Assembly (NCBI GenBank): GCA_004366385.1
Contig: SIRU01000019.1
Span: 1 to 64,000 of the forward strand
Origin: Actinomycetota bacterium
Lineage (GTDB): Bacteria > Actinomycetota > Thermoleophilia > Gaiellales > Gaiellaceae
Reading direction: 5' to 3'
Length of the DNA stretch: 64,000 bases
Of this stretch, positions 59,791 to 62,617 are shown in pieces. Each line of letters begins with the position of its first letter. Within the stretch, counting starts at the first letter, position 1. Below the pieces are notes generated by a model. The model saw only the letters and a program-made list of their open reading frames with translations, was not told the DNA's origin and did no database searches. The translations under genes were made by a program, and so were the position numbers.

Positions 59791-60189
59791 TCAGGCCGCG
59801 ACTGCGCCGCGCAGGAAGTCGACGATCTCGGTCGTCGTCGCGCCCGGGCCGAAGACCGCCGCGACGCCGTGCCCTTTCAGCTCGTCCGCGTCGTCCGGCG
59901 GGATCGTGCCGCCCACCACCACGAGCACGTCGTCGGCGCCGTTCTCGCGCAGGCCGTCGACGATCCTCGGGACGAGGGTCATGTGCGCGCCCGAGAGGAT
60001 GGAGACGCCGACCGCGTCCGCGTCCTCCTGGATCGCGGTCTCCACGATCTGCTCCGGGGTCTGGTGGAGCCCGGTGTAGATGACCTCCATGCCGGCGTCG
60101 CGGAGCGCGCGCGCGATGATCTTGGCGCCGCGATCGTGACCGTCGAGCCCCGGCTTCGCGATCACCACTCGGATCTTCCGCGGCGGCAC
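59791..60189 (-). CDS. Methylmalonyl-CoA mutase small, B12-binding subunit
   Basis: [42 protein letters not shown]. Confidence 0.95.
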
Positions 60190-60194
60190 ATCGG

Positions 60195-60201
60195 CAGAAT
60201 A
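60195..60201. promoter_or_regulatory. Putative overlapping bidirectional -10: CAGAAT (+, 60195-60200) / TATTCT (-, 60201-60196)
   Basis: Each hexamer ends 6 nt before its own GTG start; the divergent starts are separated by 17 nt. Confidence 0.5.
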
Positions 60202-60206
60202 CCGCG

Positions 60207-60935
60207 GTGCGCCTGAACGTCATCGGCTCGTCGCCCGCATGGCCGAACCCGGGCAGCGCGCACTCCGGCTACATGCTCGAGGCGAACGGGAGCCGGCTGC
60301 TCCTCGACTGCGGCCCCGGCGTCCTCGGGAGGCTTCGCGAGTCCGAGCTCTGGCCGCAGGTGGACGGGATCGCGATCACGCACTGGCACCTCGACCACTG
60401 GGGCGATCTCGTTCCCTGGGTCTGGGGCAGCTACTACCTCTCGACCAACGGGCCGCTCCCACGCCCACAGCTCTGGGTGCAGCCGGGCGGCGCCGCGTTC
60501 CTTGCCGAGCTCGGCGGCGCGCTGGGCTTCCCGGACATGTTCGAGAAGACGTTCGTCCTCGACGAGTACGAGCCGGACACGCCCTTCCAGGTCGGACCGC
60601 TCACGGTGATCGCGACCAAGGTCCCGCACTATCGGCTGCGAACGTACGCGTTCCGCGTCGAGGGGGACGGCCGCTCGCTCGCCTACTCCGGCGACTCCGC
60701 GCCGTCGGACGAGCTCGTCTCGTGCGCGAAGGACGCGGACCTCTTCGTCTGCGAGGCCACCCTGCTCCGGGGCGAGCTCGACGGCGAGCCGCGAGGCCAC
60801 CTCTCGCTCGAGGAGGCGGTCGACGCGTACGAGGCCTCGGGCGCGAGGCGGCTCCTCGTGACGCACCGCCCGTGCGAGCTTCCGACCCCGGACGAGTACG
60901 AGCTCGCCTACGACGGCCTCGAGCTCGACGTCTGA
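60207..60935 (+). CDS. MBL-fold metallohydrolase (RNase Z/ElaC-like fold)
   Basis: [31 protein letters not shown]. Confidence 0.9.
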
Positions 60936-60936
60936 C

Positions 60937-62604
<1,668 letters not shown>

Positions 62605-62611
62605 CCCGCGC

Positions 62612-62617
62612 ATTCTA
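62612..62617 (-). promoter_or_regulatory. -10-like TAGAAT, 7 nt upstream of mutase large-subunit ATG
   Basis: Position and sequence match the recurrent box. Confidence 0.45.

Follow-up and report, generated by a model that had tools for sequence, protein, structure and literature searches.

The 17-nt spacer between two divergent genes, encoding the B12-binding subunit of methylmalonyl-CoA mutase and an MBL-fold metallo-hydrolase, is very probably a conserved bidirectional promoter in which one shared −10 element would serve both genes and both mRNAs would be leaderless. The spacer lies in the window, by which we mean the whole 64,000-nt stretch of DNA that was analyzed, taken from a 2.73-Mb draft genome. 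The first-pass annotation of this DNA had proposed a shared −10 and two leaderless transcripts, and this reading now finds strong support in conservation and in genome-wide geometry. The sequences directly show how the locus is laid out and that it is conserved, as well as the signal for leaderless spacing and the repeated occurrence of the geometry.

The locus and its start codons

The features of the locus are as follows.

60190–60206, no strand assigned: intergenic spacer ATCGGCAGAATACCGCG, 17 nt, read directly; both genes would have their entire core promoter within it.
60196–60201, minus strand: putative −10 hexamer of the mutase-subunit gene, TATTCT (full TANNNT), 6 nt 5′ of GTG; T1, A2 and T6 are invariant in 24 distinct compact spacers.
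60195–60200, plus strand: putative −10 hexamer of the MBL hydrolase gene, CAGAAT, read directly, 6 nt 5′ of GTG; A2 and T6 kept, T1 absent; a start codon lies 6 nt downstream in 35 of 39 orthologous loci.
60187–60189, minus strand: mutase-subunit GTG and putative transcription start (60189), resting on the lack of an upstream start, the profile match and the genome-wide TANNNT peak at the same distance.
60207–60209, plus strand: MBL hydrolase GTG and putative transcription start (60207), 18 bp from the divergent start, resting on the lack of an upstream start and the profile match.
59791–60189, minus strand: gene for the B12-binding (C-terminal) subunit of methylmalonyl-CoA mutase, 132 aa (PF02310, 3.2e-30; TIGR00640, 181.9 bits, cut-off 57.45).
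60207–60935, plus strand: MBL-fold metallo-hydrolase gene, 242 aa (PF12706, 4.9e-23; best NCBIfam NF041851, 120 bits, cut-off 400).
60937–62604, minus strand: methylmalonyl-CoA mutase large subunit gene (TIGR00641, 778 bits; likely start ATG 62604).

Reexamination of the letters confirmed the proposed arrangement exactly. The two GTG starts, one read as CAC ending at 60189 on the minus strand and the other running from 60207 on the plus strand, are separated by 17 nt. TATTCT and CAGAAT overlap by 5 bp with an offset of 1 bp, each ends 6 nt before its GTG, and each keeps A at position 2 and T at position 6, so that the opposite-strand hexamers have their A2/T6 bases in common. If both genes are leaderless, the two starts, as placed from the sequence, would be 18 bp apart.

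The first-pass annotation had named a start-codon reassignment that widens the spacer as a possible refutation. The starts proved firm. Neither gene has an ATG, GTG or TTG upstream in frame before a stop, and the profile matches begin near the N-termini, at residue 4 of the mutase subunit (TIGR00640, position 1) and residue 1 of the hydrolase (NF041851, position 1). A wrong start codon is ruled out by these two observations, and a gene caller that has no promoter model chose the same two starts. The hydrolase scores below the curated cut-off of NF041851, a cyclic nucleotide-degrading phosphodiesterase family (120 versus 400 bits).

The hydrolase gene sits tightly between the two mutase subunit genes, and its stop codon converges with that of the large subunit at a distance of 1 nt (60933–60939). 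The large subunit probably starts at ATG 62604 rather than at 62613 as in the ORF list, because the latter start overlaps a TAGAAT −10 (62617–62612) lying 7 nt before ATG 62604; with this hexamer, the large-subunit gene is probably leaderless itself.

Leader and spacing statistics were drawn from sampled stretches amounting to about 2.35 Mb from five genomes, together with pattern scans. In all five genomes, the frequency of TANNNT has its peak at exactly 6 nt on the upstream side of predicted starts. In the genus sample, 44 of the 422 first genes carry it there, compared with about 1.5 at a background position. The 6-nt distance on both sides of the spacer is thus the modal distance in the sampled genomes. 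In Actinobacteria, including Mycobacterium tuberculosis, leaderless genes and TANNNT −10 elements are an established feature (PMC3160421; PMC3898074). Scans for standard sigma-70 promoters and for terminators gave no matches, as expected for TANNNT promoters.

Conservation and asymmetry of the shared element

The conservation of the gene pair, a check that the first-pass annotation had suggested, was examined in 39 family loci that have the divergent mutase-subunit/hydrolase pair in usable form, and both pair and element are kept in them. On the mutase side, every one of the 39 loci has a start codon 6–11 nt from the element. On the hydrolase side, N-A-G-[T/A]-A-T is followed at exactly 6 nt by a start codon in 35 of the 39, and this is the hydrolase start itself in 29 loci and the start of a short upstream ORF in six. 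The core A-G-[T/A]-A-T-A is invariant in the 24 distinct compact spacers. Spacer identity to three congeners is 17/17, 15/17 and 17/17, with 4-fold degenerate third bases at 34–61%; the spacer is nearly frozen in the genus although synonymous sites are near saturation. A fifth genus-level locus, L212, again has the identical 17-nt spacer. It comes from a MAG labelled Chloroflexi, in which the hydrolase is 81% identical, and is probably a mislabelled or mixed bin.

When the hydrolase tree is rooted at its midpoint, compact loci fall on either side of the root, which makes the compact layout probably ancestral. A longer hydrolase side occurs in at least four places in the tree (L010/L011; L009 with L015/L173; L016; L012/L169/L170/L172). 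In the separated loci L009–L011, L015, L016 and L173, the mutase subunit retains TA[T/C]ACT at 6–9 nt. The hydrolase of L014 still has AAGTAT at 6 nt from its start, with the aligned mutase start some 185 nt off. Most hydrolase copies that have another neighbour also carry an A2/T6 hexamer at 6 nt, namely CACACT (L021, L178, L181, L188), GAGACT (L176), GAGTAT (L186) and GAAGAT (L008). These patterns suggest that the mutase-subunit gene and the hydrolase gene depend on the element independently of one another.

Several loci have further peculiarities. In L012, L169, L170, L172, L009 and L010, representing three lineages, the start 6 nt past the element opens a short ORF (4, 12 or 32 codons); its TGA and the hydrolase start share a 4-nt overlap (ATGA/GTGA/TTGA). 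The sequences suggest that, in the three lineages, this upstream ORF is leaderless and that translation re-initiates at the hydrolase in coupling with it. In L023 and L024, the mutase-subunit gene opens at its 5′ end with a leaderless start and about 10 native codons. The frame then stops or shifts, and an inverted repeat and a renewed start follow (CCACCC..CGTATG), which looks as though a hairpin element had interrupted the B12 domain within its first strand. Where the hydrolase lies away from the mutase subunit (L167, L178, L179, L180, L181, L184), it often adjoins a gene resembling, as judged by eye, those for cyclic-nucleotide-binding proteins, a neighbour that fits the weak similarity of the hydrolase to the cyclic nucleotide phosphodiesterase family.

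The element is asymmetric. Its mutase side has T1, A2 and T6 at every locus. Its hydrolase side keeps A2 and T6, and position 1 is never T, being C in 18, A in 11 and G in 10 of the 39 loci, which are related and do not represent independent events; in the sampled genomes, T1 is present in 68% (178/263) of NANNNT hexamers at the same distance. The first-pass annotation had also placed a −35 element of each gene inside the other. This part stands weakly for the mutase side, where a TGAC-like ATGACG matches at 4 of 6 positions with a 16-bp spacer, and fails for the hydrolase side, where no −35 match was found. ATGACG falls on conserved hydrolase codons, and a −35 in each coding region was rejected, the one on the mutase side being weak and codon-determined. 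We infer from these features that one element would be a strong promoter for the mutase subunit and a weak one for the hydrolase.

The absence of hydrolase T1 everywhere, the lack of a hydrolase −35 and the variable mutase distance count against a shared promoter. The first two would suit an arrangement in which the mutase subunit alone uses the element, CAGAAT comes with it as an inevitable side effect and the promoter of the hydrolase lies inside the mutase-subunit gene. We consider this unlikely, since it is the hydrolase distance that is fixed, at 6 nt, and the mutase distance that drifts from 6 to 11, and since the hydrolase hexamer persists at 6 nt both in L014 and in most copies beside other neighbours. 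Alternatively, the locus might be a non-contiguous operon, with the mutase subunit transcribed mainly by read-through from the large-subunit promoter, antisense across the hydrolase, and the spacer mostly serving the hydrolase. Both mutase subunits are on the same strand, the stop codons of the large subunit and hydrolase are 1 nt apart, and no terminator-like site was found between these two genes. This arrangement, which could coexist with a shared promoter, is nevertheless very unlikely, as the invariant mutase-side TANNNT is retained when the hydrolase start moves away, and the gap between hydrolase and large subunit is larger in some relatives. That AG[T/A]ATA is a transcription factor operator and not a −10 is extremely unlikely: pseudo-symmetry and strong conservation of the core would fit an operator, but the core agrees in exact position and in consensus with the TANNNT signal that marks leaderless starts genome-wide, no symmetric conservation extends beyond it, and the geometry is found again, with other letters in the core, at unrelated gene pairs.

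We therefore return to the shared promoter and propose the following mechanism. The spacer would act as a bidirectional promoter of sigma-A type, in which a pseudo-symmetric A-N3-T with an A on its 3′ side (CAGAATA) would function as the −10 of either strand, with a 1-bp offset. Polymerase bound in one orientation would melt the element and start at 60189, giving a leaderless mutase-subunit mRNA; polymerase in the opposite orientation would start at 60207, giving a leaderless MBL mRNA. The 1-bp offset of the hexamers, together with a start 7 bp after each, would yield 18 bp, the distance from 60189 to 60207, and because each transcript would start at its start codon, the gene spacing would be set at 17 nt. 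In some relatives, where the mutase-side distance exceeds 6 nt within its range of 6–11, the mutase mRNA may have a leader of 1–5 nt. The element would be tuned toward the mutase, which has the full TANNNT and the weak TGAC-like −35, the hydrolase having neither T1 nor a −35. The two polymerase orientations should be mutually exclusive, and competition for one melted region, as reported for E. coli bidirectional promoters (PMC12825309), is plausible. What we infer, then, is that both directions are used, from which sites and at what relative strengths, and that the orientations exclude each other.

Recurrence of the geometry in the order

Among 301 divergent pairs, a gap of 8–15 nt was found once, one of 16–19 nt eight times and one of 20–23 nt six times. 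Overlapping xAnnnT hexamers on both strands, at the leaderless distance, are present in 13 of the 18 divergent spacers of 16–26 nt; shuffled spacers gave 1.05 ± 0.94 such cases, with a maximum of 5 in 2000 trials. Chance origin of the element is ruled out by ortholog conservation, these shuffles and the spacing profile.

The perfect form of the pattern at a gap of 17 nt, CAY-N5-TANNNTA-N5-RTG, was scanned for in 121 genomes of the order, with the reversed pattern as the control. It occurred 220 times, in 101 of the 121 genomes, against 43 for the control. Other spacings in these genomes gave 9 (control 59) at gap 13, 2 (control 122) at gap 15 and 38 (control 107) at gap 21. Codon phase affects the control, so the counts are better judged by comparing spacings with one another. 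When gap-17 matches were sampled, 15 of 21 lay between two called divergent genes. The narrower CAY-N6-AGTATA-N5-RTG gave 14 matches against 1 for the control in 61 family genomes, and eight of the 14 are the mutase-subunit/hydrolase pair. In 101 genomes across the phylum, no excess was seen in the sum (136 versus 158 for the control), and we therefore limit the claim of enrichment to the order; the enrichment belongs to the order, and perhaps to some other lineages, but not to the phylum.

The mutase-subunit/hydrolase pair is one of a recurrent class among the soil actinobacteria of the order and not unique. It had been regarded at first as an extreme, coding-embedded case; it is not isolated, and the embedding is only partly right, the −10 being fully intergenic and the hydrolase side offering no convincing −35. 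We think it fairly likely that, in this Thermoleophilia order, double-leaderless bidirectional promoters recur genome-wide, that polymerase geometry fixes 17 nt between divergent start codons and that one base, position 1 of the hexamer on either side, tunes which gene wins.

A glutamyl-tRNA synthetase-like gene stands in the 17-nt double-leaderless geometry in L198, L200, L202 and L208, with differing divergent partners.

Relation to known promoters and implications

E. coli bidirectional promoters have been described mainly with leadered mRNAs. The sharing of one pseudo-symmetric −10 by two opposed promoters is attributed to Warman et al. (2021). As the first-pass annotation noted, such promoters are known in bacteria. 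In E. coli, divergent transcription is driven by shared −10 symmetry, divergent starts most often lie 18 bp apart, and opposing polymerases cannot bind simultaneously (PMC12825309). We took the preferred distances of 18, 10 or 23 bp as the criterion of this class. Like the E. coli promoters, the spacer described here has two −10 hexamers with common bases, would fall in the 18-bp class and is expected to show exclusion. Unlike them, its predicted transcription starts coincide with the start codons, and the whole intergenic region would be the promoter core.

The element also resembles that of leaderless genes in Actinobacteria (PMC3160421), M. tuberculosis among them (PMC3898074), with TANNNT about 6–7 nt before GTG or ATG and no conserved −35. 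Such genes are usually described singly, however, and here they form a divergent pair. The M. tuberculosis genes Rv1129c and Rv1130 are also reported as a divergent pair in which both mRNAs are leaderless (PMC3898074); the passages of that report dealing with the pair do not state a shared −10. The best-supported reading is that the spacer would represent a known kind of bidirectional promoter in its most compact, double-leaderless form.

Such promoters would provide a sequence-only signature of bidirectional initiation for organisms without transcriptomes. Because both transcripts would start at start codons, gene spacing itself would report promoter geometry. The family also supplies natural experiments, namely the at least four lineages with separated genes and the conserved one-base asymmetry, through which the influence of T1, as well as the competition of two opposed polymerases for one −10, would become directly testable.
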